A stretch of 64,000 bases of DNA from Aggregicoccus sp. 17bor-14 (GTDB lineage: Bacteria > Myxococcota > Myxococcia > Myxococcales > Myxococcaceae): the NCBI RefSeq assembly GCF_009659535.1, contig NZ_VJZZ01000001.1, positions 325,424 to 389,423 of the forward strand. Reading direction: 5' to 3'. Below the pieces are notes generated by a model. That model worked only from the letters and a program-made list of their open reading frames with translations. It searched no databases and was not told where the DNA came from. This document shows, one piece after another, positions 32,074 through 59,451 of the stretch; positions within the stretch are counted from its first letter, which is position 1, and each line of letters opens with the position of its first letter. The translations under genes and the position numbers were made by a program.

Positions 32074-33276
32074 CTAGAGCTGCTTGCCGGCCTTGAGCAT
32101 GGCGGCGCCCACGTGCTGGCGGATCTCCTCCACGCGGGCGTCCCAGCTCTCCGAGTAGATGCGCTCGGCGCGCTCGCGGCGGGGGCCCGCCCCCTCCGCG
32201 AGGCACTCGTCCACCTTGCGCACGAAGTCCTCGGTGGAGGTGGCGATCTTGCACAGCCCCACCTTGCGCACCTCGGGCAGGTCCGTGGAGACGCAGGGCA
32301 GGCCCGCGGCCAGGTACTCGCGCACCTTGAGCGGGTTCGCGTTCAGCGTGAGCTCGTTCACGGTGAAGGGCATCAGGCTCACGTCGAAGGCCTTGCAGTA
32401 GCCGGGCAGCTCCTCGTAGCGCTTGCGGCCGAGCAGGTGGATGTTGGGCACGGCGCGCAGCTTCGAGTCGTCCACGTCCGGGGCCACCTTGCCCACGATG
32501 ACGACGCTGCCCTCGGGGTGCGCCTTCGCGGTGGCGATGAGCGCATCCTGGTCCACCCAGTCCGCCACGAGGCCGAAGAAGCCGAAGATGGGCTTGGGCA
32601 GGCTCGCGATGTCCTCGGGGATGGGCGTGGCCGGGTCGCACGCCTTCACGAAGTGCTGGAAGTCGGTGCCGTGGCGCACGAGCACGGTGCGCGGGTTCAC
32701 CTTGACCTTGTTCTCGCGCAGGCGCTCCGCCGAGGTGATGACCAGGTCCGCCTTCTTGAGCAGCACCTGCTCCAGCTCGGCGATGTGGCGGCCGTTGGTG
32801 TCGCTGAAGGCGCTGAACTCGTCCACGCAGTGGTAGACGAGGAAGTCCTCGCCCAGGGTGCCGGAGACGGGCGCGCTGGTGGGCAGGAAGCTCCAGCCCA
32901 CCGGGCGCTCGAACTTGAGCTGCTTCATCGCGCGCTTCACCTGCAGCTTGAGCAGCTCGCGGTTCGCGGCGCGGATGGCCTCGGAGCCGTAGGCGGGGAT
33001 GGCGAGCGGCGCGAGCACGAAGAGGTTGGGCTCTACCTCGCGGATGCCCTGGGTGAAGCTGCTGAGCTTCTTCCAGATGCGCTTCGCGTCGTGGGCGTTC
33101 GCCTTGGGCGCGCGGTAGCCGATGCTGTTCACCCACAGCACGCGGTTGTCGCGCGCGAGGATCCGCATGATGTGCGTCTTGGAGAGCGGGTCCCCGTCCC
33201 AGTCGTTGGAGAACACCACCAGGTCGCGGCCCCTGAGGGCGCGGCGAGCGAGGTCCATGTCATCGGTGCGGCGCAT
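32074..33276 (-). CDS. exoP: Glycosyltransferase, group 1 (ExoP-like)
   Basis: A 400-aa GT-B glycosyltransferase. The N-terminal domain starts with LVVFSNDWDGDPLSKTHIM, and the donor-binding domain carries IFGFFGLVADWVDQ and EYLAAGLPCVSTDLPEV, the EX7E-like region of GT4 enzymes. Predicted to add a sugar to the undecaprenyl-linked repeat unit on the cytoplasmic face. ATG start with GGAG 7 nt upstream. Last of five minus-strand genes whose order (deacetylase, flippase, acyltransferase, two GTs) matches the M. xanthus exoL-exoP block; the name rests on that order and family, recalled from memory. Confidence 0.75.
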   Translation of the reverse strand: MRRTDDMDLARRALRGRDLVVFSNDWDGDPLSKTHIMRILARDNRVLWVNSIGYRAPKANAHDAKRIWKKLSSFTQGIREVEPNLFVLAPLAIPAYGSEAIRAANRELLKLQVKRAMKQLKFERPVGWSFLPTSAPVSGTLGEDFLVYHCVDEFSAFSDTNGRHIAELEQVLLKKADLVITSAERLRENKVKVNPRTVLVRHGTDFQHFVKACDPATPIPEDIASLPKPIFGFFGLVADWVDQDALIATAKAHPEGSVVIVGKVAPDVDDSKLRAVPNIHLLGRKRYEELPGYCKAFDVSLMPFTVNELTLNANPLKVREYLAAGLPCVSTDLPEVRKVGLCKIATSTEDFVRKVDECLAEGAGPRRERAERIYSESWDARVEEIRQHVGAAMLKAGKQL

Positions 33277-33320: not shown

Positions 33321-34379
33321 TCAGGCTGCGGCGGCGTGGTCGGCCGCAGGCGGAGGCAGCCCCGCGAGCTGCGCGTAGAGCGCGAGCAGCACGGGCCCGG
33401 CGTCCGGCGAGGCGACCTGCGCCCGGGCGCCGGTGAGCGCCCGCTCCACGGCAGCCGCGAGGGCCGCAGGATCATTGTTGGCGAAGGTGATCGTTCCCGC
33501 CGGCCGGGTGCACACGTCCGAGGCCACGCAGGCGACCCCCAGCGTGAGCGCCTCGCGCACGGAGATGGCGTCCCCGTCGTGCGTGGTGGGGCGCAGGAAC
33601 ACGTCCGAGCGGGAGATGAGCGCGAGGGCCTGGTCGTGGGCGAGCTCGCCGAGCAGCTCGAGGTGGGAGGCGACGCGGGCCTCGCGCACGTCGCGCACGA
33701 AGTCGTCCGTGCCGATGCCCGGGCCGAAGAGCGCGAGCCCCACGTCCGGGTGGCGCTCGGCCACGAGGCGCAGCGCGCGGAAGGCGAGCGCGCGGCCGTA
33801 CACCGGCGAGGGGTGGTGCGCCATGGCGATGAGCGGCGTGCGGCGCGCGCGGGCGGCCTCCACCTCGGGGGTGGCGGCGCCGGGGCGCACCTGCGAGGCG
33901 CAGAAGGCTGGCTCCACCTGCACCTTGCGCTCGGGGACGCCGGCGTCCACCAGGGCGGCCTTCACCGCGTCCGACACGGCGATGACCCGGTCGTAGCCCG
34001 CGAGCGCGGCGCGCGCGAAGGCCCGGCGCGCCGCGGAGGCCGCGAGGTAGCCCGGCAGGAGCCCCGAGTGCAGGGTGATGACGCGCGGAGCGCGCGGGCC
34101 CGGGATGCCGGCCGTGGCGGCGAGCACCCAGGACTTCGGGTTGTTTCCGCTGGTGTGGACGTGGACCGTCCACCCGGCGCGCAAGAACCCCGCGAGCCGC
34201 AGCGAGTACTGGGCGAGCGTGCGCACCGGGAGGACGTCCGGATCCGGCCGGCCACCCTTCCCGATGTCGAGCACCTTCGCCTCGACGCCGCGGCTGCGAA
34301 GAAATCGATGGAGCTGCTGGACGTGGACCGCGACCCCGCCATGAGGCGGGGGGTAGTCCCCCACGAGGAGCACGCGCAT
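33321..34379 (-). CDS. exoO: Glycosyltransferase, GT4-type (ExoO-like)
   Basis: A 352-aa GT-B glycosyltransferase. MRVLLVGDYPPPHGGVAVHV is a classical GT4 N-terminus; VITLHSGLLPGY and DRVIAVSDAVKAALVDAG follow, and the donor domain contains DAISVREALTLGVACVASDVCTRP, the GT4 EX7E segment. Cytoplasmic, extending the lipid-linked repeat unit. ATG start at 34379; 31 nt follow exoN and 44 nt precede exoP. The position in the block corresponds to M. xanthus ExoO, shown there to be needed for the intact spore coat. Confidence 0.77.
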   Translation of the reverse strand: MRVLLVGDYPPPHGGVAVHVQQLHRFLRSRGVEAKVLDIGKGGRPDPDVLPVRTLAQYSLRLAGFLRAGWTVHVHTSGNNPKSWVLAATAGIPGPRAPRVITLHSGLLPGYLAASAARRAFARAALAGYDRVIAVSDAVKAALVDAGVPERKVQVEPAFCASQVRPGAATPEVEAARARRTPLIAMAHHPSPVYGRALAFRALRLVAERHPDVGLALFGPGIGTDDFVRDVREARVASHLELLGELAHDQALALISRSDVFLRPTTHDGDAISVREALTLGVACVASDVCTRPAGTITFANNDPAALAAAVERALTGARAQVASPDAGPVLLALYAQLAGLPPPAADHAAAA

Positions 34380-34410: not shown

Positions 34411-34920
34411 CTACTGGATGTGGGTGGGCGTCTTGGTGGGCGGCGGCGGCTGGGGGGCGAGCCCCATGTCCCGCTGGTAGCTGGCGAGCGGGTCCGGCTC
34501 CCGGCGCAGCACGCGCGCGGGGACTCCTGCGACCACCGCGCCCGGGGGCACGTCCTTCACCACCACCGCGTTCGCGCCGATCACGGCGAAGTCCCCCACC
34601 GTGATGTTGCCGAGGATCTTCGCCCCGGCGCCGATGCGCACGTAGTCGCCGATGACCGGCGCGCCCTCGAGGCCCGAGCGCCCGCCGATGGTGACCTGCT
34701 GCGAGATGAGGCACTGGCGCCCGATGCGGGCCGCCTTGTGGATGACCACGCCGATGCCTCCGTAGCCCAGCTGCGTGCCCTCGCCGATGTCCGCGTCCTG
34801 CGGGATGGAGGAGCTGTGCAGGTAGTAGATCGCCTTGCGCAGCAGGTCCGGCAGCACCGGGATGTTCTTGAGATGCAGCCGCCGTGCGGCCCGGTACAGC
34901 GTCATCGCGTCCACGCCCAT
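34411..34920 (-). CDS. exoN: Left-handed beta-helix acyltransferase (serine acetyltransferase-like)
   Basis: A 169-aa hexapeptide-repeat transferase. From about residue 45 the repeats IGEGTQLGYGG, IGRQCLISQQVTIGG, IGDYVRIGAGAKILG and VGDFAVIGANAVVVKDV build the beta-helix, with the catalytic His in VVIHKAARIG. The C-terminal VVAGVPARVLR is typical of serine and sugar O-acetyltransferases in polysaccharide loci. It likely O- or N-acetylates the repeat unit. The ATG at 34920 is used; an in-frame GTG 12 codons upstream lacks similarity. The symbol follows position between exoM and exoO and is less certain than its neighbours. Confidence 0.72.
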   Translation of the reverse strand: MGVDAMTLYRAARRLHLKNIPVLPDLLRKAIYYLHSSSIPQDADIGEGTQLGYGGIGVVIHKAARIGRQCLISQQVTIGGRSGLEGAPVIGDYVRIGAGAKILGNITVGDFAVIGANAVVVKDVPPGAVVAGVPARVLRREPDPLASYQRDMGLAPQPPPPTKTPTHIQ

Positions 34921-34991
34921 CGCCCTCTTCCCCCGTCCCCTCGACCTCTGGCCCAAAGACCCACGGCCCCCGTTGGGTCGTGGCCAAGCTA

Positions 34992-35031: not shown

Positions 35032-36555
35032 TCACGCTGCGCGGCGCAGCCTCACGTTCGCGATCAGCGCGAGCAGCCGCACGCCTGTCGCGTGCAGGAC
35101 GGCGACGTAGCCCGTGGCGAACAGGATGCCGGCCACCGCGAGCGGCAGCGCGCGCCACACGAAGCCCGTGGGCAGGCCGAGGTACGCGTGCCCCAGGAAG
35201 AGCCGCAGCAGCGTGACGCCCAGCGCGGCGGCGGCGGCCGAGAGCCCCGCCTGGCCCAGCTGCCGCCAGGGGATGACGTCGCGCAGGTGCAGCGGGCGCT
35301 CCGGCGTGGAGAGCGCGCGCGGCAGGGGCATCAGCAGCGTGGCCTTGCCCACCACCTCCGCGAGCGCCCACGAGGCGATGCCGCCGGACATCCCGAAGTG
35401 GCGCACGCCCAGGTACACGAGCGGCAGCGTGACGAGCGCCTTGGTCAGGTACGAGAGGAAGATGGCGCGGGTGAAGCCGCGCGCGCGCAGCACGCCGTCC
35501 ATGGGCAGCACCGCGAGCGCCACGCCCAGCACGCTGACGCGGAAGATGGGCACCGCGGGCAGGAACTTCTGGCCGAACAGCGCCCCGATGAACTCGGGCG
35601 CGGCGGCGAAGAGGAAGGCGGCGAAGGGCAGGAACACGAAGGCGAGCTTGCCCGCGGCCTCCTTGAAGGCGTCCACTGCCTCGTCGAGCCTCCCCTCCTT
35701 CTCCAGCTCGCCGAGGCGCACCATCAGCACCTCGCTGGTGGGGGTGTAGAGCAGGTCCACCACCGGCAGCTGGAAGCAGCCCACGCGGTAGAGCGCGTAG
35801 AGCGCCGGGGCCACGGCGCCGGCCACCATGTACAGGTGCGCGTTCTGCTGCGGCACGCTGAGCAGCATCGCCGCGCCGAAGGGGGCCGCGTACGCGAGCT
35901 GCGCGCGCATCAGCTGCGGGCTGAACAGCGGCCCGGTGCTGCTGCGCAGGGTGAGCGCCCAGGTGGCCAGGTAGCGCGCGAGCGCGAAGCCCGCCACCGC
36001 CCACATCAGCCCGTGCAGCCCGAAGCCCAGCAGACAGGGCACCACCATCACGCCGGCGCGCACCGCGTCCGAGGCCAGGTACACGAGCGCGCTCTCGCGC
36101 GTGCGGCCCTGGCTGGTGAGGCTCACCTCCAGCGGCATCGCCCCGATGAGCAGCGCGGTGTAGAGCGCGAGCGGCGCGCGGAAGCTGAGCAGCGCGGGGT
36201 TGGAGAACCACGCGGCCACGGGCGAGAGCGCCGCCACCACCCCGAGCCCGCCCACGAGCCCCGCGGCGGTCATGAAGAGCAGCGTCTGCCCGAGGAAGGG
36301 GCGCTTCGCCTCCGCGCGCGGCAGGAAGTAGTAGAGGCTCTGCACCACCCCGAAGGGCAGCACGTAGTAGAGCGTCGTGGCGATGAGGAAGAGCTGGTAG
36401 TACGTGCCGTACTCGCTCAGGTTCAGCACCCGCGCGAGCACCAGGGGGATGGAGAGGGTCAGTCCGGCGGTGAAGAGCCGGGCGAGCACCAGGGGCCCCG
36501 CCTTGCCGAGGAAGCTTCCGCCTCCGGCACTCGCGGGGGCTGTACGGTCCTTCAC
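35032..36555 (-). CDS. exoM: Wzx-type polysaccharide flippase (ExoM-like)
   Basis: A 507-aa multi-pass inner-membrane protein of the MOP/oligosaccharide flippase superfamily, about 12-14 helices. It begins after a short polar tail with FLGKAGPLVLARLFTAGLTLSIPLVLARVL and EYGTYYQLFLI, typical of Wzx. It should move the undecaprenyl-linked repeat unit across the inner membrane. The GTG start at 36555 overlaps the exoL stop (GTGA), and the longer open frame upstream is only exoL shadow. M. xanthus ExoM is the flippase of the spore-coat pathway; gene order and family both agree. Confidence 0.82.
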   Translation of the reverse strand: MKDRTAPASAGGGSFLGKAGPLVLARLFTAGLTLSIPLVLARVLNLSEYGTYYQLFLIATTLYYVLPFGVVQSLYYFLPRAEAKRPFLGQTLLFMTAAGLVGGLGVVAALSPVAAWFSNPALLSFRAPLALYTALLIGAMPLEVSLTSQGRTRESALVYLASDAVRAGVMVVPCLLGFGLHGLMWAVAGFALARYLATWALTLRSSTGPLFSPQLMRAQLAYAAPFGAAMLLSVPQQNAHLYMVAGAVAPALYALYRVGCFQLPVVDLLYTPTSEVLMVRLGELEKEGRLDEAVDAFKEAAGKLAFVFLPFAAFLFAAAPEFIGALFGQKFLPAVPIFRVSVLGVALAVLPMDGVLRARGFTRAIFLSYLTKALVTLPLVYLGVRHFGMSGGIASWALAEVVGKATLLMPLPRALSTPERPLHLRDVIPWRQLGQAGLSAAAAALGVTLLRLFLGHAYLGLPTGFVWRALPLAVAGILFATGYVAVLHATGVRLLALIANVRLRRAA

Positions 36556-37748
36556 GGGTTCTCCTTGGGCAGGTTGTTGGCGGCGGCCGCGGCGCGCAGC
36601 GTCTGCGCCGCGAGAGAGGCGCTCAGGCCGCGCGCCTGGTGCGGGCGCTTGCCGAGCACCGGGCTGCTCATGCCGAGCACGCCGAAGCAGTCGTCGAGCT
36701 GGCAGGTAGTGAGGCTCGGCGAGTAGTCGCCGAGCATGCCGAGGCTGAAGTTCTCCCAGAGCACCTTGCGCTTGAGGGCGAAGGGGTCCCCGCCGATGCG
36801 GTTGGGCACGTCCTCGGTGGTGACGGCGGAGCGGAAGCCCTGCGCCTGCAGCACGCGGATGATCTCGTCCGAGTACCAGCCGTTGCAGTAGGCGAAGTCC
36901 TGCACGCGGCAGCCCAGCTCGCGCTCGATGGTGCGCTTGCTCTCGCCGATCTCCCGCTCCACGGACTCGGTGCTCTCCAGCGTGAGCACGGTGTGGCCCA
37001 GCGTGTGGGCGCCGAACTCGAAGCCGTCGCGGTGCATGCGGCGCACCTCGTCCCAGTTCATGATGTCGCCCTGCTCGGGGGTGAGGTCCGGGTCGCCGCC
37101 CAGCTGCTGCTCGAGCGCGTCGATGACCTCGGTGAGCGTGGAGCCGGGGTGCACCTCGATGAAGTCGTCCAGCGTGGCGCTCGCGCTCTTGTGCCCGGAG
37201 AGGATGGGCTGCAGGAGCTCGGCGGCCGCGGCGGGCAGCGTGTCGAAGAAGGGCCGGTTCTTGCGCTCCTGCATCTTGCGCACGAGGTGGAAGAGCCGGT
37301 CGTGGTTGAAGCGGCGATCCGTGCCGATGAACGCCGTGGGCAGATAGGTGATGGCCGGCACGCCCAGCTTCTTCAGCACCGGGTAGGCGTAGCGGTACAC
37401 GTCCCGGTAGCCGTCGTCGAAGGTCACCACGCACAGGTCCTTCTTCGCCGTGCGCCGGCCCGCCATCACGTCCACCGCGTCCCCGATGCTGGCGAAGTCG
37501 TAGCCGGCGGCCGCCGCCTCCTCGAGGTGCTTCTGGAAGGTCTCCTGGGAGATGAGCAGCCCGGGGATGGAGCGCTGCAGCTCGCCGGTGAAGTCGCTCA
37601 CCACGCGGTGGTAGCTGACGATGAGGATGCGCCGCCCGCCGGACTGGCTGCGGCGCCACTTCGCCATGGCGCTGCGCACCCCGCTGTAGTGCATGAAGCC
37701 CGCGGCCGCGCCCTTCACCACCCGACGAATCAGCATCGAACCCGACAT
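36552..37748 (-). CDS. exoL: Polysaccharide deacetylase, NodB-type (ExoL-like)
   Basis: A 398-aa carbohydrate esterase family 4 protein. Motif 1 is VVTFDDGYRD (catalytic base and metal Asp pair), motif 2 is FGAHTLGHTVL with the H-x3-H metal ligands, and later segments (YCNGWYSDEI) complete the NodB fold; an insert of about 70 residues lies between motifs 1 and 2. No clear signal peptide, so it may act on the cytoplasmic repeat unit. The ATG at 37748 is chosen; another at 37736 is possible and the GTG region further up lacks similarity. First gene of the exoL-M-N-O-P operon, about 47 nt downstream of a predicted sigma54 start. Confidence 0.78.
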   Translation of the reverse strand: MSGSMLIRRVVKGAAAGFMHYSGVRSAMAKWRRSQSGGRRILIVSYHRVVSDFTGELQRSIPGLLISQETFQKHLEEAAAAGYDFASIGDAVDVMAGRRTAKKDLCVVTFDDGYRDVYRYAYPVLKKLGVPAITYLPTAFIGTDRRFNHDRLFHLVRKMQERKNRPFFDTLPAAAAELLQPILSGHKSASATLDDFIEVHPGSTLTEVIDALEQQLGGDPDLTPEQGDIMNWDEVRRMHRDGFEFGAHTLGHTVLTLESTESVEREIGESKRTIERELGCRVQDFAYCNGWYSDEIIRVLQAQGFRSAVTTEDVPNRIGGDPFALKRKVLWENFSLGMLGDYSPSLTTCQLDDCFGVLGMSSPVLGKRPHQARGLSASLAAQTLRAAAAANNLPKENP

Positions 37749-37805: not shown

Positions 37806-37821
37806 TGCAGCCCCGGTGCCA
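37806..37821 (-). promoter_or_regulatory. Predicted sigma54 promoter of exoL-P
   Basis: On the minus strand TGGCAC-CGGGG-CTGCA matches the -24/-12 consensus TGGCAC-N5-TTGCW at all but one fixed position and has the required GG-N10-GC spacing. Predicted transcription start near 37795, about 47 nt before the exoL ATG. The rest of the 268-nt divergent gap (37749-38016) shows two TCCACCC copies 14 bp apart (37914-37920 and 37928-37934) upstream of it, and no clear promoter for ccmA. Confidence 0.6.
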
Positions 37822-38016
37822 GCGGCGCGCGCGCCAAGCGCCTGATCTTCCAACGCTCTGGGCGAGCCGATCCGCCGCTCCCGGGGCGAGCAGGCCTACC
37901 TGCTGAAAAACTTTCCACCCGAGCGGCTCCACCCTTCCCTGTGCGCCGCCGGGGGGCGCGGGGGTGCCGAGTCCGCTGGTGAACGCGGCGATTTCCGGCT
38001 ACTTACGCGGGCCTCC

Positions 38017-38685
38017 ATGCCCCCTCCCCCTTCCCCTGACGCTGTGCCGGCGCTCGCGCTGCACGACGTGAGCAAGCGCTACGGGCGCCGCTGGGCGCTC
38101 GCGCGGCTCAGCTATGCGCTGCCCGCGGGGCGCTCGCTGCTGCTCACCGGGCACAACGGCTCGGGGAAGACGACGCTGCTGCGCCTGGTGGCCACGGCGC
38201 TCAGCCCCACGGCGGGCCGGGTGGAGGTGCTGGGCAAGGACAGCGTGGGCGCGCGGGACGAGGTGCGGCGCGAGGTGGCGCTCTTGAGCCACGCGAGCTT
38301 CCTGTACGAGGACCTCACCGCGGAGCAGAACCTCACGGTGTTCGCGCGGCTGCTGGGCCTGCCCTCCCCGCGAGACGCCGCGCAGGGGCTGCTCACCCGG
38401 GTGGGGCTCACCCAGCGCTCGGACAGCCCGGTGCGCCAGTTCTCCGCGGGCATGCGCAAGCGGCTCGCCATCGCGCGGCTCCTGATGAAGCGGCCCTCGC
38501 TCGCGCTCCTGGACGAGCCCTTCGGGGAGCTGGACCCCGCGGGCATCGCGGCGATGGAGGAGATCATCGGGCAGCTGAAGCAGGAGGGGGTCACGGTGGT
38601 GCTCGCCACGCACCTGGTGGAGCAGGGCCTCGCGCTGTGCGAGGAGCGGCTGCACCTGCAGGACGGCCGGGCGGTGGCCGCGTGA
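38017..38685 (+). CDS. ccmA: Cytochrome c maturation ABC transporter ATP-binding protein CcmA
   Basis: A 222-aa ABC ATPase. Walker A GHNGSGKTTLLR at about 45-56, signature QFSAGMRKRLAIARLL, Walker B LALLDEPFGELD and the H-loop ATHLVEQG are intact. With CcmB it forms the ATPase that releases holo-CcmE from the CcmC-D-heme complex in System I cytochrome c biogenesis. Together with eight ccm genes in order, the assignment is secure. ATG start; the stop overlaps the ccmB GTG as GTGA. First gene of the plus-strand ccm cluster, divergent from exoL. Confidence 0.92.
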   Translation: MPPPPSPDAVPALALHDVSKRYGRRWALARLSYALPAGRSLLLTGHNGSGKTTLLRLVATALSPTAGRVEVLGKDSVGARDEVRREVALLSHASFLYEDLTAEQNLTVFARLLGLPSPRDAAQGLLTRVGLTQRSDSPVRQFSAGMRKRLAIARLLMKRPSLALLDEPFGELDPAGIAAMEEIIGQLKQEGVTVVLATHLVEQGLALCEERLHLQDGRAVAA

Positions 38686-39380
38686 GCGCGCCGCGCCAGG
38701 GAGTGGGGCTCGCGCGCACGACGCTCGCGCTGCTGGGCAAGGACCTGCTCATCGAGTGGCGCACCCGCGCGCGGCTCAACGCGCTGGTGTTCTTCTCGCT
38801 CGCCACGCTGCTGCTCTTCTCGTTCGCGCTGGGGCCGGACACGCGCCTGCTGGAGCGCAACGCGGGCGGCTACCTCTGGCTCGCCATCCTCTTCGCCAGC
38901 GTGCTCGCGCTGGGCGAGAGCTTCCGGGTGGAGCAGGAGAACGCCTGCCTGGATGGCCTGCGGCTCACCCCGGCGGACGCGCGCGCCATCTTCCTGTCCA
39001 AGGCGCTGGGCAACGGGCTGCTGCTCGTGGTGCTCGGGGTGCTGCTGGTGCCGGTGATGGCGGCGCTCTACGGAGTGAAGATCACGCTCGGGCTGTTGCC
39101 CCTGGGTCTCACCCTTCTGCTCGGCTGTATGGGGCTCAGCGCGCCGGGCACCGTGTACGCCTCCATCGCGAGCAACGCCCGCGCGCGGGACGTGCTCCTG
39201 CCGCTGTTACTCTTCCCCCTGATCATCCCGGCGCTCCTCGCCGCCGCCAAGGCCACCAACCTGGTCCTCCAGGGTGACCCGATGAATCAGCTGAGCTCAT
39301 GGCTCAAGCTTCTGGCGGGCTTCAATCTGATATACTGGAGCCTGGGCTTCGTGCTGTTCCCCCGGGTGATCGAGGACTAG
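38682..39380 (+). CDS. ccmB: Heme exporter membrane subunit CcmB
   Basis: A 232-aa inner-membrane protein with six hydrophobic helices; LLGKDLLIEWRTRARLNALVFF at the start and VLALGESFRVEQENACLDGLRLTP are typical CcmB signatures. It is the permease partner of CcmA. GTG start overlapping the ccmA stop by GTGA; the longer open frame is ccmA shadow. It is followed after 19 nt by ccmC. Confidence 0.93.
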   Translation: MSAPRQGVGLARTTLALLGKDLLIEWRTRARLNALVFFSLATLLLFSFALGPDTRLLERNAGGYLWLAILFASVLALGESFRVEQENACLDGLRLTPADARAIFLSKALGNGLLLVVLGVLLVPVMAALYGVKITLGLLPLGLTLLLGCMGLSAPGTVYASIASNARARDVLLPLLLFPLIIPALLAAAKATNLVLQGDPMNQLSSWLKLLAGFNLIYWSLGFVLFPRVIED

Positions 39381-39399
39381 GGACCGAAGGGCCAAACCT

Positions 39400-40098
39400 A
39401 TGGGCAAATCCAAGACCGTCTGGGTGCTGGGGGCACTGGCCGCAGTGCTGCTGGTGGTGGGCCACTACCTCGGGCTCGCGTGGGCGCCGCCCGACCGCGA
39501 GATGGGCGACGTGCAGCGCATCATGTACGTGCACGTGCCGCTGCAGTGGATGGCCTGCCTGCTGCTCACGCTGAACTTCGGCTGCGCGCTCGCCTACCTC
39601 TTCAAGGCGAGCTGGCGCACGGACGCGCTCGCGGAGGCCTCGGCCGAGGTGGGCCTGGTGTGCGCGACGCTGGGCCTCGTCACCGGCTCCATCTGGGGCA
39701 AGCCCACGTGGGGGGTGTACTGGTCGTGGGATCCGCGGCTCACCGCGGAGGCGATCATGATCGTCACCTACACGGGCTACCTCGCGCTGCGCCGCTTCGT
39801 GGAGGACCCGGAGCGGCGCGCGGTGTGGAGCGCGGTGGTGGGGATCATCGGCTTCGTGAACCTGCCCATCGTCTGGTTCAGCGTGCGCTGGTGGCGCAGC
39901 CTGCACCAGGTGCAGAGCAGCCCGCGCACCGTGGACCCGCAGATGGTGCTGCCCCTGCGGGTGAACGCCTTCGGCTTCCTCGCGCTGGTGTGCGCGTTCG
40001 TCCTCATCCGCTACTGGATTGCCCTGCGCGAGCGCGAGGCCGAGGTGGCCCTGCCAGACGCGCTGCCCAGCGCGCCGCACCCCCGGGAGGTCGCATGA
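39400..40098 (+). CDS. ccmC: Heme-handling protein CcmC
   Basis: A 232-aa six-helix membrane protein of the heme-handling family. The tryptophan-rich WWD-type motif reads WGVYWSWDPRLT near 105-116, and histidines flank it (MYVHVPLQWM and RSLHQVQ) as heme ligands. CcmC loads heme onto CcmE. ATG start; the stop overlaps the ccmD ATG (ATGA). Confidence 0.95.
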   Translation: MGKSKTVWVLGALAAVLLVVGHYLGLAWAPPDREMGDVQRIMYVHVPLQWMACLLLTLNFGCALAYLFKASWRTDALAEASAEVGLVCATLGLVTGSIWGKPTWGVYWSWDPRLTAEAIMIVTYTGYLALRRFVEDPERRAVWSAVVGIIGFVNLPIVWFSVRWWRSLHQVQSSPRTVDPQMVLPLRVNAFGFLALVCAFVLIRYWIALREREAEVALPDALPSAPHPREVA

Positions 40099-40328
40099 TG
40101 CCCCTTGCTTCGGTTGCCTCGGTGCTCTCCTCGGGGCTGCTCGCCCAGGCGGCGGATGCCGCCTCGCGCGTGGGCGTGGGCCGCATCGTGGGCGGCTGGG
40201 ACTTCGTGGGGCGCGCGTACGGCGTGGCCTGGGCGGGGCTCGCGCTCTACGCGCTCTCGCTCTGGGTGCGCCGCCCGCGCACGCAGGACCTTCCGCCCGC
40301 TGGCAACCGCGGGCCTTCGGGGAAGTGA
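40095..40328 (+). CDS. ccmD: Small heme exporter protein CcmD
   Basis: A 77-aa single-span membrane protein. The core WDFVGRAYGVAWAGLALYAL followed by WVRRPR is the recognisable CcmD helix with its basic cytoplasmic end. It stabilises the CcmC-CcmE-heme complex. The N-terminal 35 residues before the helix are longer than usual. It starts at an ATG inside the ccmC stop (ATGATG) and ends 5 nt before ccmE. Small size and position between ccmC and ccmE support the call. Confidence 0.82.
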   Translation: MMPLASVASVLSSGLLAQAADAASRVGVGRIVGGWDFVGRAYGVAWAGLALYALSLWVRRPRTQDLPPAGNRGPSGK

Positions 40329-40333
40329 CGGCC

Positions 40334-40876
40334 ATGGAATCGGAGAAGAAGCCGGCGATGAAGCCCACCACCCGCAACCGCCTCCTCGCGCTCGGCGCGC
40401 TGCTCGTCGCCGCGGCGGGGCTCGCCTTCGTGTCGCTGGGGAAGATTGGCGACAACCTCGTCTACTACTGGAGCCCCTCGGAGATGCTCGCCAAGGGCGA
40501 GGACGCGTACGGGGCCACGGTGCGTCTGGGCGGCCTCGTGCAGCCGGGCAGCATCCACTGGGACGAGACCCACACCTCGCTCACCTTCCGCGTGGCGCAG
40601 GGGCTCGAGCCGAGCGCCGCGAGCGTGCTGGTACGCAGCACGGAGGTGCCGCCGCAGATGTTCCGCGAGCGCATCGGCGTGGTGGTGGAGGGCACCTATG
40701 ACGCCTCGCACGTCTTCAGCTCCAACCGGCTGATGGTGAACCACTCCAACGAGTACCGGGCGCCCAAGAACAGCGACGACGTGAAGAAGCTGTACCAGAC
40801 GCTGGAGCCGGAGAAGACCGCGTCCAATGGCGCCCCCGGCGAGGGCATCAGCGGCGGTCCGGGGGGCAAGCCTTGA
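40334..40876 (+). CDS. ccmE: Cytochrome c heme chaperone CcmE
   Basis: A 180-aa periplasmic heme chaperone anchored by one N-terminal helix (about 16-35). The OB-fold domain contains the covalent heme-binding motif VNHSNEY with H137 and Y141. The C-terminal tail is Pro/Gly-rich and flexible. It carries heme from CcmC to CcmF/H. The ATG lies 5 nt after the ccmD stop. The stop TGA is overlapped by the TTG start of ccmF. Confidence 0.93.
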   Translation: MESEKKPAMKPTTRNRLLALGALLVAAAGLAFVSLGKIGDNLVYYWSPSEMLAKGEDAYGATVRLGGLVQPGSIHWDETHTSLTFRVAQGLEPSAASVLVRSTEVPPQMFRERIGVVVEGTYDASHVFSSNRLMVNHSNEYRAPKNSDDVKKLYQTLEPEKTASNGAPGEGISGGPGGKP

Positions 40877-42894
40877 ACGGGCTGGTGGGCTACGGCCTCA
40901 TCCTCGCGGGGCTCGCGTTCGCGACCTTCGGCGCGATCGTGGGGCTCACGGCCGGCATGCGCCGCAGCACGGGCAGCCTGCGCTGGGTGCGCGCCTGCGT
41001 GTGGGGCTTCTTCCTGTGCATGGCGGGCAGCAACCTGACCATGGTGCACGCGCTCGTCACCCACGACTTCAGCGTGCGCTACGTGGCGCAGGTGGGCAGC
41101 CGGGCCACGCCCCTGCTCTACACGGTGGTGAGCCTGTGGAGCGCGCTCGAGGGCTCCATCCTCTTCTGGGGCCTCATCATGGGCAGCTACGTGCTCGCCT
41201 TCATGCTGGCGAGCCGCCGCGAGGAGCCGCGCCACCTCACGCTCGCGCTGGGCACCATGCTCGGGGTGGGCATCTTCTTCGCCTTCCTCATCGCGGGGCC
41301 GGCGAACCCGTGGAGCGCGGTGAGCCCGGTCCCGCCGGACGGGCCGGGCCCCAACGCGCTGCTGCAGAACCACTTCCTCATGGTGATCCACCCGCCGATG
41401 CTCTACCTCGGCTACGTGGGCATGACCGTGCCCTTCGGGGTCGCCGTGGCAGCGCTGCTGGGAGGCGAGCTGCGCGAGAGCTGGATGGCCCCCCTGCGGC
41501 GCTGGACGCTCATCGCGTGGACCTTCCTGTCCGTGGGCATCATCCTGGGCAGCTGGTGGGCGTACGCGGTGCTGGGCTGGGGCGGCTACTGGGCGTGGGA
41601 TCCGGTGGAGAACGCGAGCTTCCTGCCGTGGCTCACGGCGACCGCGTTCATCCACTCGACGATGGTGCAGGAGCGCAAGCGCATGCTGAAGCTCTGGACC
41701 ATCAGCCTCGCGCTGGCGAGCTTCGTGCTCACCATCCTGGGCACCTTCATGACCCGCTCGGGCATCTTCAACTCGGTGCACTCCTTCACCCAGTCGGAGA
41801 TCGGCCCCACCTTCCTGGTGTTCATCGCCTTCCTGCTGGTGGTGTGCATCGCGCTGCTCGCGGCGCGCGGACACCTGCTCGTGGCCGAGGGCTACGTGAA
41901 GAGCCTCGCGAGCCGCGAGGCCAGCATCCTGGTGAACAACCTGGTGTTCGTGGCCATCACCTTCACGGTGCTCATCGGCACGCTCTACCCGCTCATCAGC
42001 GAGGCGGTGCGCGGCGTGCGCGTGAGCGTGGGCGAGCCCTACTTCAACAAGATGGCGGTGCCCGGCGGCATCGCGGTGCTCTTCCTGATGGGCGTGGGGC
42101 CCATGCTCCCCTGGGGGAGCTCGGACCCGGCCACGGTGCGCCGGCAGTTCGTGGTGCCCTCGCTGGTGGGGCTCGCGGTGACGGCGGCCTGCTACGCGGC
42201 GGGGCTGCGCGGCTTCTACCCGCTGCTCACCTTCGGCCTCGCGGGCTTCGTCACCCTCGTCACCCTGCGTGAGCTTGCCCTGCCCGTCCGGGTGCGGATG
42301 CGCGAGCGCAAGGAGGGGCTGGTGGGGGCGCTCTTCGGCAGCGCCACCAAGGCGCGCCGCCGCTTCGGCGGGTACATCGTGCACCTGGCCATCGTGCTCA
42401 TCATCGTGGCCGTCGCCGCGAGCAGCTCGTACGTGACCCACGCCACGGCCACCGTGCGCGAGGGGCAGAGCTTCGCCATCGGCGGCTACAGCGTGAAGTA
42501 CCTGGGGCTCACCAGCGGCCGGGAGCCGCGGCGCACCTTCGTGGCCACGAAGCTCGAGGTGACCACGCCGGGCGGCAAGGTGGAGCCGCTCGCGCCGCGG
42601 ATGAACTACTACGAGCGGATGACCGACCCGGTGGGCAGCCCCGCCGTGCGCGACCACCCGGGCGAGGACCTCTACGTGTCGCTGCTCGCCTTCAGCGAGG
42701 GCGGCGCCACGGCGAGCTTCAACGCGTGGGTGTTCCCGCTGGTGAGCTGGATCTGGTGGAGCATCCCGCTGCTGGTGCTCGGCTCGCTCATCTCGCTGTG
42801 GCCCTCGCGCCGGGCGCGCACGAGCGCGGCCGGGAGCGCCGGTGCCCAGGTCGCCTCCGTGCCTTCGGCCTCGGCCGAGCGGGGGGCCGCATGA
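40873..42894 (+). CDS. ccmF: Heme lyase subunit CcmF
   Basis: A 673-aa polytopic membrane protein with some 14-15 helices, the heme-lyase core that ligates heme to apocytochrome c. The WWD motif reads [19 protein letters not shown] near 235-253; further signatures are SAFEGS-like [11 protein letters not shown] and [12 protein letters not shown]. The protein appears to start at TTG 40873, overlapping the ccmE stop (TTGA); a GTG at 40885 is the alternative. The stop overlaps the ccmG ATG. Confidence 0.95.
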
Positions 42895-43430
42895 GGTGGA
42901 AGCTGCCCGTGGGGCTCGCCGTCGTGAGCGTGGCGCTGCTCGTGGTGCTGTGGAAGGGCTTCGGGCGCGACCCGCACGAGGTGCCCTTCATGATGCAGGG
43001 CAAGCCCGCTCCCGCCTTCACCCTCAAGGCGCTGAATACCGGTGAGACGGTGAGCCTCGCCGCCCTCAAGGGCCAGCCGGTGGTGCTCAACTTCTGGGCG
43101 TCCTGGTGCGGGCCCTGCGAGGGCGAGCACCCGGTGCTCGAGTGGGGCGCGCGCAAGCTGGGCCAGGACGCGCGCTTCCTCGGCGTCATCTTCGAGGACA
43201 CGGACGACAACGCCCGCGCCTTCCTGCGCCGCCACGGCGAGAGCTTCACCCAGCTCGTGGACCCCCGCTCGCAGATGGCGGTGGACTACGGGGTCGCGGG
43301 CGTGCCCGAGACCTACTTCATCGACGCGGATGGCATCATCCGCGGCAAGCACGTGGGGCCCATCGATCCGGACACCCTGGAGGCCGCCGTGAGGGCGCTG
43401 CGCGAGCCTGCAGCCGCTCCGGCGCGCTGA
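42891..43430 (+). CDS. ccmG: Thiol:disulfide oxidoreductase CcmG/DsbE (TlpA-like)
   Basis: A 179-aa membrane-anchored thioredoxin-fold protein. One N-terminal helix (about 5-22) precedes the thioredoxin domain with active site WCGPC (C73, C76) and the cis-Pro region GVPETYFID. It keeps the CxxCH cysteines of apocytochrome c reduced. It starts at an ATG overlapping the ccmF stop. After it comes a 95-nt gap with a hairpin before ccmH. Confidence 0.92.
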
Positions 43431-43486
43431 GGCGCGCAGTGGAGCGCGCGACGCCAGCTCCCCCATCGGCCCCGCCCGGGGCTTTC

Positions 43487-43503
43487 CCGGTGCAAGGCAC
43501 CGG
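43487..43503 (+). other. Hairpin in the ccmG-ccmH gap
   Basis: CCGGTGC-AAG-GCACCGG, a perfect 7-bp stem with a 3-nt loop, 22 nt before the ccmH start. A second GC-rich stem (about 43470-43482) precedes it. It is the only sizeable gap in an otherwise overlapping cluster, so this may be a processing or attenuation site. Confidence 0.35.
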
Positions 43504-43525
43504 CGCAAGCAGTAGGACGTACCCC

Positions 43526-44011
43526 ATGAGCCTCCTCCTTCCCCTCACGCTCGCGCTCGGCCTCGCCGCGGGCCAGTACGCGCCGCAGCAGGCCGGAAGC
43601 CAGCCGCTCGCCCCGCCGCTGGAGCAGCGCGTGCAGAAGCTGGGCAAGGAGCTGCGCTGCGCGGTGTGCCAGGGCCTCTCGATCACCGACAGCCCGTCCT
43701 CCATGGCGCGCGCCCAGCTGGACAAGGTGCGCGAGCTCGTCTCCGAGGGGAAGAACGACCAGGAGGTGCGCGACTACTTCGTCGCGCGCTACGGCGAGTG
43801 GGTGCTGCTGCAGCCCAAGGCCGAGGGCTTCAACCTCTTCGTCTGGCTCGGCCCCGGGGTGCTGCTGCTGGTGGGCGCCTTCGTGATCCTCCGCCAGGTG
43901 CGCCGCGCCCCCGAGCCCGCTGCAGCCCCGCATTCGCCCTCCTCCACTCCCGTCCCGGCCGAGGCCGAGGACCCCTACCTCCAGGCCGTGCGCCGGGACC
44001 TCGAGCGATGA
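43526..44011 (+). CDS. ccmH: Cytochrome c biogenesis protein CcmH/CycL
   Basis: A 161-aa protein with signal peptide, periplasmic three-helix domain bearing the LRCxxCQ redox motif (C45, C48, LRCAVCQGLSITDS) and a C-terminal membrane helix (about 107-126). It reduces apocytochrome c and works with CcmF and CcmI in the heme-ligation complex. ATG start with a GGACG-type site. The stop overlaps the ccmI start (ATGA). Confidence 0.93.
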   Translation: MSLLLPLTLALGLAAGQYAPQQAGSQPLAPPLEQRVQKLGKELRCAVCQGLSITDSPSSMARAQLDKVRELVSEGKNDQEVRDYFVARYGEWVLLQPKAEGFNLFVWLGPGVLLLVGAFVILRQVRRAPEPAAAPHSPSSTPVPAEAEDPYLQAVRRDLER

Positions 44012-44982
44012 CACAGCAGACCAACTGGATTCCGGGCCTCGTGGTGCTCGGGCTGGTGTTCGTGGCGGCCTCCCTCTACCTGCTCTTCACCCGCCGCGCC
44101 GGGGGCGCCGCGGCGCCCGAGAGCGCCGGCGCGGGGCCGGGGCTCGCGGACCTGGAGCGGCGCTACCAGGGGCTGCTCGAGCAGCTCAAGGAGCTCTCCA
44201 CGGAGCAGCACCACCTGCCCGCCGAGCAGTACGCCCAGGAGCGCAGCCGGCTCGAGCACGAGGCGGCGGCGGTGCTGCGCGAGCGGGACGCGGTCGCGCG
44301 GGCGCCGGTGGCCGCTGCGCGCGCGCAGGCTCCTGCGCCGGCTGCCGCGGCGCCGGGAGGCTTCCTCGCGGATCGGCCGCAGCTGCGCGGCGCGCTGTGG
44401 GGCGCGGGCATCGTGCTGTTCTTCGGCGCGCTGAGCTACGTGCTCGTCTCCGAGCAGCGCGAGCGCGACGAGCAGGGGGTGATGACCGGCCGCACGCCTC
44501 CGGGAGCCGGTCCCATGCAGGGCCAGGGCGCCCCGGGCGGCAGCGCCGCGGCGGGCCAGAGCGACGACGCGGAGCTCACCGCGGCGCGCGAGCGGCTGCG
44601 CGAGAACCCGGGGGACCTGGAGACCTCGGCGCTGGTGGGCCACGAGCTCATCCGCCGCGAGGTGTACGACGAGGCCCTGCGGGTGACGAACCGCGCGCTC
44701 GCGGTGGACCCCTTCCACGTGGAGTCGCGCGTGCACCGCGGCGTGCTGCGCGCCATCAGCGGTGACGGCGAGGGCGGCGAGAAGGAGCTGCGCGAGCTGG
44801 TGGACCTCTACCCGGACGCACAGGAGGCGCTGCTCTTCCTCGGCGCCATCGCACAGCAGCGCGGGCAGAAGGCGGACGCGCTCGCGTACTTCGAGCGCTT
44901 CAGCGTGGAGGTGCCGCGGGACCAACGGCCGCCCCAGGTGGCCCAGGCGATCGCGCGGCTGCGCCAGCAGCTCGGACGCTAG
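44008..44982 (+). CDS. ccmI: TPR protein CcmI/CycH
   Basis: A 324-aa protein with an N-terminal membrane helix, a charged coiled-coil loop (about 45-95), a second membrane helix (about 128-147) and a periplasmic TPR domain (about 190-322; repeats begin DDAELTAARERLRENP and EALLFLGAIAQQRGQ). This is the CcmI/CycH layout that binds the C-terminus of apocytochrome c and presents it to CcmF/H. It starts with an ATGA overlap after ccmH and ends the ccm run. Confidence 0.85.
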   Translation: MTQQTNWIPGLVVLGLVFVAASLYLLFTRRAGGAAAPESAGAGPGLADLERRYQGLLEQLKELSTEQHHLPAEQYAQERSRLEHEAAAVLRERDAVARAPVAAARAQAPAPAAAAPGGFLADRPQLRGALWGAGIVLFFGALSYVLVSEQRERDEQGVMTGRTPPGAGPMQGQGAPGGSAAAGQSDDAELTAARERLRENPGDLETSALVGHELIRREVYDEALRVTNRALAVDPFHVESRVHRGVLRAISGDGEGGEKELRELVDLYPDAQEALLFLGAIAQQRGQKADALAYFERFSVEVPRDQRPPQVAQAIARLRQQLGR

Positions 44983-44993
44983 ACAGGGGGCGC

Positions 44994-45947
44994 ATGGACC
45001 GGGGACCCACCGAGGCGCCGTTCACCCGCAGCGAGGTGCACTTCGCCTCGGGCGCGGAGCGCTGCGCCGCGTGGCTGTACCGGCCCACGGCGAAGCCCGG
45101 TCCCCTGCCCTGCGTGGTGATGGCCCACGGCTTCACCCTCACCCGCAACGACGCCCTCCCCCGCTTCGCCGAGGCCTTCGCGCGCGAGGGCTTCGCCGCG
45201 CTGCTCTTCGACTACCGGCACTTCGGCGACTCGGAGGGAGAGCCCCGGGAGCTGCTGGACATTGCGCGGCAGCGCGAGGACTACCGCGCGGCGCTCGCCT
45301 ACGCGCGCACCTTGCCCTTCGTGGACGCGGAGCGGCTGGTGCTGTGGGGCTTCTCCTTCTCGGGCGGCCACGTGCTCGCCGTGGGCGAGCAGGACGCGGA
45401 CGTGGCCGCCGTGGTCTCGATCGCCCCCTTCGTCAACGGGCTCGCGAACCTGCGGATCACGCCGCTGCGGGTGCTCCTGCGCGCCGCGGGGCTCGCGGTG
45501 CTGGACGGGCTGCGCGCGCTGTTCGGGCGGGCGCCGCTCTACGTGCCCGCGGTGGGGGAGCCGGGCACCTTCGCGCTGCTCACCTCGGAGGAGGCGATGC
45601 CGGGCTATGCGTCCATCACCTCGAGCGCGGACTCGCGCTGGGTGAACCGGCTCGCCGCGCGGCTGCTGCTGCACGTGCCCTTCGAGAACCCGGGCGGAGC
45701 GGCAGGACGGCTCGGTGTGCCCCTGTTCATGGCCGTGGCGAACCGGGACCTCACCGTTCCTCCGGAGGCGGCCGTGCGCGCGGCGCAGCGCGCCCCGAAG
45801 CTGGAGCTGCGCCGCTACGACACCGGCCACTTCGAGATGTACCGGCGCCCGGACGTGCTGGACGATCAGCTCTCGTTCCTGCGCCGGCGGGTGCTCGGCA
45901 TCCTCCCGCCGAAGAGCGAGCTGCTCGTCGAGGTGGAGCTCTCGTAG
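44994..45947 (+). CDS. Alpha/beta hydrolase (dienelactone-hydrolase/acetyl-esterase-like)
   Basis: A 317-aa hydrolase of the COG1073 type. VVMAHGFTLTRND gives the oxyanion region, LLFDYRHFGDSEGEPR is characteristic, and the nucleophile is S121 in GFSFSGGHVLA. The acid is in FMAVANRDLTVPPE and the His in YDTGHFEMY. No signal peptide. Substrate unknown. It begins 11 nt after ccmI and may be on the ccm transcript, without an obvious link to cytochrome c. Convergent with the M1 peptidase gene. Confidence 0.85.
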   Translation: MDRGPTEAPFTRSEVHFASGAERCAAWLYRPTAKPGPLPCVVMAHGFTLTRNDALPRFAEAFAREGFAALLFDYRHFGDSEGEPRELLDIARQREDYRAALAYARTLPFVDAERLVLWGFSFSGGHVLAVGEQDADVAAVVSIAPFVNGLANLRITPLRVLLRAAGLAVLDGLRALFGRAPLYVPAVGEPGTFALLTSEEAMPGYASITSSADSRWVNRLAARLLLHVPFENPGGAAGRLGVPLFMAVANRDLTVPPEAAVRAAQRAPKLELRRYDTGHFEMYRRPDVLDDQLSFLRRRVLGILPPKSELLVEVELS

Positions 45948-45980
45948 CGGCCGTGCCCTTCCCCCGGAGGAGAGGGAGCG

Positions 45981-48578
45981 CTACGGAGAGGCGGTGTCCA
46001 GCCAGCGCGCGAGCGGCGCCTGCTGCCGCGCCTTGAGCGCCGCGCACTGGGAGATGGACTCCAGGCTGCGCTTGAGGGTGCGCTCGGCGCCCGGAGCCGG
46101 GTGGCTCGCGAAGAAGCCCTCGATGTCGCGCGCGGCCGCGGCGTCACAGAAGGCGCCGAGTGCGCCCACCGCGCCGCCGCCGCCGAACGAGGTCACCTGG
46201 CTGCTCAGGCGCGCCCAGTCCGCCTTCATCGCCGCCCAGGCCTGATCGCGCGAGGCCGGGTTGCTCAGCAACGCCCCGGTGTACGAGGGCAGGTCCTGGC
46301 TGCGCAGGGTGGGCGAGCGGAGGAGGGCCACCGCGCGCTCCACCAGCGCCGGGTCGCGGAAGCGCGTGAGCGCCATCAGGTAGCGGAAGGCCTCCTCGGG
46401 GCTGCCCGCGCGCTGCTGCTGGGCCTGGAAGGCCTCGAAGAGCGCCGCGTCCCCGTAGCGCGCCGCGATGCCCACCGCCACGCCCGCGAGGCTGGGATCC
46501 AGCGAGGCCGGCGCCTTCATCGCCTGCTGGGTGAGCGCTCGCGCCCGCGCGATGGCCGCCTCGTCCCCTGCGCCGGCAAGCGCGCCGAAGAGCCGCGCCC
46601 GCAGGTCGCGCGCGTCATCCGGCTCGCCGGGCTTCGGCTCCCAGCCCAGCTCGTTCAGCGCCGGCGTCACCCGCGCGCGCACCCAGCGGTCGAAGGCAGG
46701 GCGCTGCGCCGGGGCCACCAGGTACTCGCCCACGAAGCCGATGCGCTCGAGCAGCACCTCCCACACGGCGCGCCGCCGCTCCGCCTCCATGCCCGCGGCG
46801 AGCTGCAGCACCTCGGAGACCTCGCCGTCCCCCGCGAGCACCAGCGCCCACTGGTCCTGCAGCAGCACGATGCGCTCGGCGGGGCTCAGCGCGCTCATCA
46901 CCTCGCCCGACAGCGCGCGCAGCGCCTCGGGAGCGTAGCGGGTGCGGTAGAAGCCGCTCGCGCCGGCATTCGCGAACACCCACGGATGGCAGCCCTGCAC
47001 GGAGAAGGTCTGCTCGCGCTGGCGCAGCAGCTCGCACTGCGGCGCCCCCTCCTTGCCGCTGCGCAGGCACACCGGCACCTGCCACAGCTCGGCGGAGGCC
47101 CCCTTCGGCGCGGAGCCCGGGTTCGAGAGGAAGCGCTGCTGGCGCAGCGTCACCTTCGTGCGGTCGCCCTCGCAGCGATTCCGCACGGCGATGCGCGGCA
47201 GGCCCGCCTGGGTGACGTAGCTCTTCATGATGCGGTCCACGGGCTTCTTCGAGACGCGGGTGAGCTCCGTCCAGAGATCCTCCGCCGTGGCGTTGCCGTT
47301 CTGGTAGCGCGCGAGGTAGGCCCGCACGCCGTCACGGAAGGTGTCCGGCCCGAGGTAGGCCTCGAGCATGCCGAGCACCGCCGCGCCCTTCTGGTAGGCG
47401 ATGCCGTCGAACAGCTCCTTGATCTCTCCCGGGGTCTCGCCATTGGCGAGGATGGGGCGGGTGGTGGAGAGCGAGTCCACCTCCGCGACACCGGCCGCAT
47501 CCAGCGCGGCCTCGAGGGCCTGATCCCACTTCGGATCCCACGCCTGCACGGGCTTGCGCGCCATCCAGGTGGCGAAGCCCTCGTTGAGCCAGATGTTGTT
47601 CCACCAGCGCGTGGTGACGAGGTCGCCGAACCACTGGTGCGCCATCTCGTGCGCCACCACCGAGGCGAGGCCGCGCTTGGCGCTCACCGTCATGGTCTTC
47701 TCGTCGCGCAGCAGCGCGCGCTCCTTGTAGAAGATGGCGCCGGTGTTCTCCATCCCGCCCCACTCGTAGTCGGGCATCGCCACCTGATCGAGCTTGCCGA
47801 AGGGGTAGCGGATACCGAAGTAGCGGTTGAAGAAGGGGATGAAGGTGCGCGTGAGCTCGAGCGCCGTGCGCCCCATCTGCACCTTCTCCGGCACCGCGCA
47901 CACGCGCAGCGGCGTGCCGTCCGACTCGCCCTCCAGGCACTGGAAGTCACCCGCGGCAATGGCCACCAGGTACGTGGACATGCGCGGCGAGGTGGAGAAG
48001 GTCAGCGTGTGCTTGCCGGCTTGCGGGCCCGGCTCGTCCTTCACCAGCTTGCCGTTGGAGATGACGGTGTCGCCCGCGTCCGCGACGACGGAGAGGTCGA
48101 AGGTCGCCTTGAACGCAGGCGCGTCGAAGCAGGGGAACACCATGCGCGCGTACGTCGCCTCCAGCTGGGTGGCGAGGTACTTCCGGCGAGGGCTCTTGCT
48201 GAAGTACAGGCCGCGCAGGTCGTCGCGCACGCGGCCGCTGAAGGCGAGCGAGAGCTCCGCCTCCCCTGCTGCCAGCGCCTTGGGAAAGCTCAGGGTGACG
48301 GTCTCGGCCGCCGCGTCCACCTTCACGCTGCCCTGCTGGCGCTGGCCGCCGGCCGTCACGGCCACGTCGCGCAAGGTGAGCCCCACCGCGTTGAGCACGA
48401 CGCTGCGCGTGGGCTTCGCGATGCGCAGGCGCACCGTCTCCTTCCCCTCGAGCGCGCCCGTCGCCATGTCCGGGGCGAGCGAGAGCGTGTAGTGCTCGGG
48501 GACGACGGTCTCTGGCAGGCGGGAGGCGGCCGCCAGAGAGGGCAGGAGGACGAAGAGCAGGGCGAGGTGGGCGCGCAT
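45981..48578 (-). CDS. Secreted M1-family zinc aminopeptidase
   Basis: An 865-aa M1 metallopeptidase with a cleavable signal peptide (about 1-18, ending SLAAAS). The exopeptidase motif is GGMEN at 274-278, zinc motif HEMAH at 310-314 and third ligand E333 (LNEGFATW). The ERAP1-like helical domain occupies about 540-850. In contrast to the lipoprotein paralogue in this window, it keeps the normal MEN motif. Predicted periplasmic or secreted, trimming peptides from the N-terminus. ATG start. It stands between the ccm cluster and exoI, both transcribed from other promoters. Confidence 0.9.
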   Translation of the reverse strand: MRAHLALLFVLLPSLAAASRLPETVVPEHYTLSLAPDMATGALEGKETVRLRIAKPTRSVVLNAVGLTLRDVAVTAGGQRQQGSVKVDAAAETVTLSFPKALAAGEAELSLAFSGRVRDDLRGLYFSKSPRRKYLATQLEATYARMVFPCFDAPAFKATFDLSVVADAGDTVISNGKLVKDEPGPQAGKHTLTFSTSPRMSTYLVAIAAGDFQCLEGESDGTPLRVCAVPEKVQMGRTALELTRTFIPFFNRYFGIRYPFGKLDQVAMPDYEWGGMENTGAIFYKERALLRDEKTMTVSAKRGLASVVAHEMAHQWFGDLVTTRWWNNIWLNEGFATWMARKPVQAWDPKWDQALEAALDAAGVAEVDSLSTTRPILANGETPGEIKELFDGIAYQKGAAVLGMLEAYLGPDTFRDGVRAYLARYQNGNATAEDLWTELTRVSKKPVDRIMKSYVTQAGLPRIAVRNRCEGDRTKVTLRQQRFLSNPGSAPKGASAELWQVPVCLRSGKEGAPQCELLRQREQTFSVQGCHPWVFANAGASGFYRTRYAPEALRALSGEVMSALSPAERIVLLQDQWALVLAGDGEVSEVLQLAAGMEAERRRAVWEVLLERIGFVGEYLVAPAQRPAFDRWVRARVTPALNELGWEPKPGEPDDARDLRARLFGALAGAGDEAAIARARALTQQAMKAPASLDPSLAGVAVGIAARYGDAALFEAFQAQQQRAGSPEEAFRYLMALTRFRDPALVERAVALLRSPTLRSQDLPSYTGALLSNPASRDQAWAAMKADWARLSSQVTSFGGGGAVGALGAFCDAAAARDIEGFFASHPAPGAERTLKRSLESISQCAALKARQQAPLARWLDTASP

Positions 48579-58620: not shown

Positions 58621-59217
58621 CTACGGAACGACGATGGTGTCGCCCGGGCGCAGGATGACGTCGTACTTCTCCTGCGCGTCCCCCTTCACCAGGTCGCTGT
58701 AGCGCACCGGGATGCGCTGGCTCTTGGCGCCCGCGTCCGTGGAGGTGCGGATGACCACGATCTCGTCCGAGTCCGCGAAGTCGGTGAAGCCGCCCGCCTG
58801 CGCGAGCACCTGCAGCAGCGAGACGCGGCCGCGCAGCGGGTAGGCACCCGGGTGCGTCACCTCGCCGGTGACGAACACGCGGCTGCTGTTCACCTCGCGC
58901 ACGATCACGTTCACGCGCGGCTCCTGCACGTACGGCTTGAGCTTCTCCTTGATCTCGTTCTCCAGCTCGCCGGGCGTCTTGCCCGCGGCCATCAGCTCAC
59001 CCGCCATGGGCATGGTGATGAAGCCGTCCGGCCGCACCGGGAGCACCCGGGAGAGGTCCGGATCGCGCCACACCGCGATGTCGAGCACGTCCTCGCGCCC
59101 GATGCGGAACGGCTTCTCCGAGTTGTCCACCTGGGGGGCCTGCTGGTGGGCGCATCCCGAAAGGAGGAGCATCCCGAACCCCATCACCGCCATCGCCCTC
59201 GCGCTCTTCTTGAACAT
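58621..59217 (-). CDS. exoA: Polysaccharide export lipoprotein (Wza-type, ExoA-like)
   Basis: A 198-aa outer-membrane lipoprotein (lipobox LLSGC, Cys22). The poly-export domain FRIGREDVLDIAVWRDPDLS (about 37-56) is followed by one SLBB domain, VFVTGEVTHPGAYPLRGRVSLLQVLAQAGG. It lacks the C-terminal amphipathic helix with which E. coli Wza spans the outer membrane, so the barrel ExoB probably completes the channel. The ATG at 59217 has an AGGAGAGGG site; 13 extra in-frame codons upstream lack similarity. First gene of the exoA-I operon; in M. xanthus the gene is also called fdgA and is reported as a target of the developmental regulator FruA. Confidence 0.85.
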   Translation of the reverse strand: MFKKSARAMAVMGFGMLLLSGCAHQQAPQVDNSEKPFRIGREDVLDIAVWRDPDLSRVLPVRPDGFITMPMAGELMAAGKTPGELENEIKEKLKPYVQEPRVNVIVREVNSSRVFVTGEVTHPGAYPLRGRVSLLQVLAQAGGFTDFADSDEIVVIRTSTDAGAKSQRIPVRYSDLVKGDAQEKYDVILRPGDTIVVP

Positions 59218-59306: not shown

Positions 59307-59322
59307 AGCACCGGGTGTGCCA
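59307..59322 (-). promoter_or_regulatory. Predicted sigma54 promoter of exoA-I
   Basis: TGGCAC-ACCCG-GTGCT on the minus strand: the -24 element is perfect and the -12 element differs at one position from TTGCW, with GG-N10-GC spacing. The start should fall near 59296, giving a leader of about 79 nt before exoA. Confidence 0.65.
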
Positions 59323-59451
59323 CCCCCTCGGAGTGCCCAAACCTCGGGAATCTGGGGGTTTCAGTGAGGTAGGTGCAAGGAGGACAGGGGAAGATCGGGA
59401 AATTTTTTCGGCTGATCCCCAGAGGACACCGGGGTCCTTCCCGTGATCAGG

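Follow-up and report, generated by a model that had tools for sequence, protein, structure and literature searches.

A probable sigma54 promoter before exoL-P, one of three on dispersed pieces of a spore-coat pathway

The window, that is, the whole stretch of 64,000 nucleotides that was analysed, carries genes of the spore-coat (SPS/MASC) exo pathway at two places on its minus strand. At the higher coordinates lie exoA, which encodes a polysaccharide export (OPX) protein (58621..59217, PF02563), and exoI (48623..49900, Acetyltransf_6), which in other families stands directly before exoL. Here exoI and exoL are parted by a stretch (38017..48578) holding CcmA/B/C-like genes, a redoxin, a hydrolase (+) and an M1 peptidase (-). 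The exoL-P group comprises exoL, which encodes a polysaccharide deacetylase (36552..37748, PF01522), an exoM-like gene for a Wzx flippase (35032..36555, start approximate, PF13440), an exoN-like gene for a hexapeptide acyltransferase (34411..34956, PF00132), and exoO-like and exoP-like glycosyltransferase genes (33321..34379 and 32074..33276, respectively), the orthologue of the latter standing directly before wzy in family f5. The third piece of the pathway is the Wzy polymerase gene, located 138 kb from exoA in the source genome (G000:C1:521831-523117, minus strand). Its product is a Wzy_C protein, and position and domain suggest that it is WzyS (ExoJ). The M. xanthus gene for WzyS and the WzaS tract are 223 kb apart (PMC7310880), and in genome G022 wzy is 246 kb from exoA. 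The components found for the pathway are an export protein, Wzz, a kinase-like ATPase, Bac_transf, Wzx, Wzy, a deacetylase, and acyltransferases.

Before exoL, the string TGGCAC-CGGGG-CTGCA occupies 37806..37821 (minus strand, read from 37821 to 37806) and departs at one position from the sigma54 consensus TGGCAC-N5-TTGCW. Its GG (-24) and GC (-12) are intact, with 10 bp between them, which is the spacing of a sigma54-dependent promoter, and 47 nt separate the predicted start (~37795) from the ATG at 37748; both the site and this distance had been proposed in a sequence-only reading of the DNA and were confirmed. The exoL leader was scanned for a sigma70-like promoter, and none was seen. The site of exoA-I, TGGCACACCCGGTGCT, is located at 59307..59322 on the minus strand, and ~79 nt lie between its predicted start and the exoA ATG at 59217. 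The two sites had been described as having the same orientation and a similar distance to their genes; the orientation holds, and the distance agrees only roughly (47 nt vs ~79 nt). The same reading had asked whether the Wzy locus also has such a site, and it does: TGGCACGCACCCTGCT stands 70 nt before the ATG of wzy. A single rpoN and ~40 enhancer-binding-protein domains are encoded in the genome.

Motif strength was assessed genome-wide using pattern counts, with the reversed pattern as control. In the window, only the exoL and exoA sites fit the pattern with one mismatch; chance would give 1 to 2 such sites, and the strength of the motif alone is therefore not significant. With at most one mismatch, the genome contains 106 matches to the sigma54 pattern and 107 to the reversed pattern; since the two are equally frequent, motif strength was rejected as sole evidence. 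The earlier argument that two near-consensus sites speak against chance is accordingly weak on its own, such matches being common across the genome. Leaders accounted for 15 of 30 sampled sigma54-type matches and coding sequence for 9, although this sample takes in all 13 perfect matches and is thus enriched for good sites; among 30 reversed-pattern matches, coding sequence accounted for 27 and leaders for 1. Because the motif by itself leaves room for chance, the decision falls to comparison across the family.

For this comparison, a leader was counted as having a site if there were no more than two mismatches and GG/GC were intact, with f1 denoting the family of the window. Sites were present in 25/26 exoL leaders, 26/26 exoA leaders, and 27/27 wzy leaders of f1; in other families they were found in 22/24 exoA leaders and in 0/24 exoL leaders. 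Shuffled leaders gave sites in 2-5% of cases, and leaders of paralogous export genes in 1/20. Counted once per genus, the -24/-12 boxes hold 1.75-1.92 bits per column, the spacer 0.34-0.84, and the flanks 0.26-0.65, a combination of conserved boxes and freely varying spacer that is characteristic of sigma54 promoters. The exoL and exoA sites are kept across 12 genera, and this conservation in both leaders supports the proposal that exoA and exoL have sigma54-type promoters in common. Although the window and genome-wide counts given above would allow it, a functionless sigma54-like string in the exoL leader is highly improbable, given that the site is retained with a variable spacer in nearly every leader of the family, against 3-5% in shuffled leaders, and is missing from every leader in which exoL is internal to an operon.

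In f1, a sigma54 site could not be recognised in just one exoL leader, that of G011:C525:2558-3664. The wzy site of G036 is atypical (AGGCGCGCGGATTGCA). In G006 and G026 (f1, genus g7), exoA has a sigma54 site and the search for an exoL orthologue returned only ~26% matches. The entry titled Comamonas sp. KCTC 72670 (L032) is probably mislabelled, its exoL locus closely resembling that of Myxococcus xanthus.

The spore-coat set forms one continuous block in most related families and three pieces in the source genome. Wherever exoA and exoL share one contig in other families, exoL follows exoA in the same orientation at a distance of 9-12 kb, and the gene before it, where found, matches exoI and ends at most 97 nt before exoL. 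The two groups had been regarded as separate halves of one pathway; this does not hold for their origin, since in other families of the order the genes are contiguous and the only sigma54 site is the one at exoA. At E below 1e-40, exoL was found only within the order. The ExoL tree shows f1 as a single clade with good support, nested in the other families under a midpoint root, the root being weak, and the exoL promoter was thus probably gained once. For wzy, the sites in f1-f3 and those in f9 point to two gains or more. Where wzy is on another contig or far from exoA in f4, f6, and f7, there is no close upstream sigma54 site, so promoter gain is not universal. In f5, wzy follows the exoP-like glycosyltransferase gene in several genomes and has a sigma54 site in 0/7. 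Since exoL probably acquired its promoter a single time, in one clade, about three events in all tie detachment to the acquisition of a promoter, which is few.

A further feature is shared by the leaders upstream of the promoters. A 12-base motif, GGAAaTTTTTCC, was learned from exoA leaders only and scored z 5.9 in exoL leaders and 5.4 in wzy leaders (0/100 shuffles). In the window, the candidate activator sites are GGAAAGTTTTTC, 95 nt upstream of the exoL -24 (37905..37916, minus strand), and GAAAAAATTTCC, 87 nt upstream of the exoA -24 (59398..59409, minus strand). Measured from the -24, the element is mostly at 85-89 nt in exoA leaders, most often at 84-88 nt in wzy leaders, and over a wider range in exoL leaders. 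The exact dyad was found in 19/26 exoA leaders of f1 (null mean 1.4) and 11/22 elsewhere (0.3), and exoL leaders had it exactly in 3 cases and with at most one mismatch in 22/25 (null 8.1), these nulls flattering the result because leaders within the family are mutually related. An exact GGAA-N-TTCC dyad was present in 0/26 wzy leaders of f1 and was rejected for that promoter, where only a related element scores, often at the same distance. The shared GGAA...TTCC-like upstream element is a likely candidate for an activator site, weakest at wzy. A second block common to exoA and wzy leaders, approximately GATCCAYGGG-CTTT, was seen by eye ~15-40 nt upstream of the -24.

The pattern GGAA-N3-6-TTYC-N58-88-TGGCAY-N6-TGCW was searched over 20 genomes and gave 30 matches, with exoA, exoL, and wzy among them besides other single hits, and 0 matches when reversed. 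The element and a sigma54 site were also found together before a gene for a 73-aa YHS-domain (PF04945) protein in five genomes, with the gene start within ~70 nt downstream (G000:C15:22158-22252, minus strand, L305; also L292, L296, L297, and L313), which suggests that this small protein is a fourth target.

Taken with the conservation of the sites, this makes it very probable, as judged from comparative sequence data, that the exoL site is the sigma54 (RpoN) promoter of spore-coat exoL-P and one of three on dispersed pieces of the pathway that have apparently retained common control. In the ancestral state, one operon would have been driven from exoA. On detachment, exoL-P and wzy would each have gained a sigma54 promoter of their own and a GGAA...TTCC-like upstream element, so that one promoter apparently became three during operon break-up and the pathway may have stayed under common control through the separate promoters and elements. 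RNA polymerase carrying sigma54 remains inactive at the -24/-12 boxes until an enhancer-binding protein bound upstream opens the promoter. At the exo promoters, such a protein would act from ~70-140 bp upstream during sporulation, and the same type of switch on each piece probably still allows all of them to be activated together.

The main candidates for this activator appear to be Nla6 and an ActB-like response regulator encoded beside exoA in several families. That Nla6 activates all three promoters is a real possibility, if short of probable. Its control of exoL-P has reportedly been published, which would make the operon an Nla6 target. The title of Giglio 2015 also favours Nla6, as does the finding that nla6 mutants fail in glycerol-induced sporulation, with nla6 up 20.6-fold (PMC2875238).

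More tentatively, the activator may be the ActB-like enhancer-binding protein, with receiver and Fis-type domains, that was historically encoded beside exoA. Its orthologue is the immediate upstream neighbour of exoA in f3, f4, f5, f7, and f9, and in f1 the distance upstream is 3-68 kb; in the source genome the gene (L269, G000:C1 ~393.3-396.1 kb, outside the window) is ~9 kb upstream of exoA. It stands behind a GGDEF gene, with a perfect sigma54 site, TGGCACAGCTGTTGCT, further upstream, and the name ActB-like was given because this site fits the published actB promoter, TGGCACA-N4-TTGCT (PMC9765219). The element was not seen upstream of the act-like operon's own promoter. Family f6 carries the dyad, yet its genome G051 is without a clear orthologue, which counts against the ActB-like protein as sole binder. 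As a more speculative extension, the ActB-like protein might control at least four promoters (exoA, exoL, wzy, and YHS) through GGAA...TTCC, each fragment having independently acquired the element and a sigma54 promoter, and the regulon would thereby have outlived the break-up.

A further, equally tentative reading is that the promoters are real and answer to different activators, with FruA, MrpC, and Nla6 acting promoter by promoter and no single regulon. A 2024 study of late-acting operons is said to have found that regulator binding differs at each promoter, and the weakness of the element at wzy is consistent with this. PMC4320627 reports binding of FruA upstream of exoA (the exo operon) and no such binding for MrpC. 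Against separate activators, the same element was recovered in all three leaders, and it predicts new matches where the reversed pattern has none.

Common control by sigma54 promoters, the preferred reading, would make this a clean natural case in which an operon has split and its control is apparently still common. Inside the operon the gene lacks a promoter; standing by itself, the same gene has a sigma54 promoter that is conserved. The case also offers a short candidate for an activator site and a rule for finding more sporulation genes, and it leaves fewer proteins to consider as the direct activator of spore-coat synthesis.

Earlier work has established the exo genes, the way they are split, and the role of sigma54 in controlling development. 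M. xanthus exoA-I and exoL-P have reportedly been studied jointly, and their control is said to be partly published. In a literature search that stopped short of the contents of the most relevant papers, no description was found of a promoter being gained when an operon splits, of the element common to the leaders, or of Wzy and YHS as members. M. xanthus exoA-I (MXAN_3225-3233) and exoL-P, which we take to be MXAN_3259-3263, have the same genes and the same split as here, and in M. xanthus AM003 (L031) a site that matches, TGGCACCTCCCCTGCA, precedes exoL by 68 nt; the source genome differs in belonging to another genus of the same family. The exo sites have the same core consensus as the M. 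xanthus developmental cascade of sigma54 and enhancer-binding proteins (Nla28, Nla6, ActB, and MrpB), for which TGGCACG-N4-TTGC(T/A) has been published (PMC9765219). Both split and contiguous spore-coat clusters have been described, and the contiguous spore-coat-type cluster of Anaeromyxobacter (PMC7310880; f5 was taken as that group) resembles the present one in its orthologous genes and in having a sigma54 site at exoA. In contrast to the dispersed pieces, that block has one promoter for all its genes, with exoL and wzy internal and without a site.
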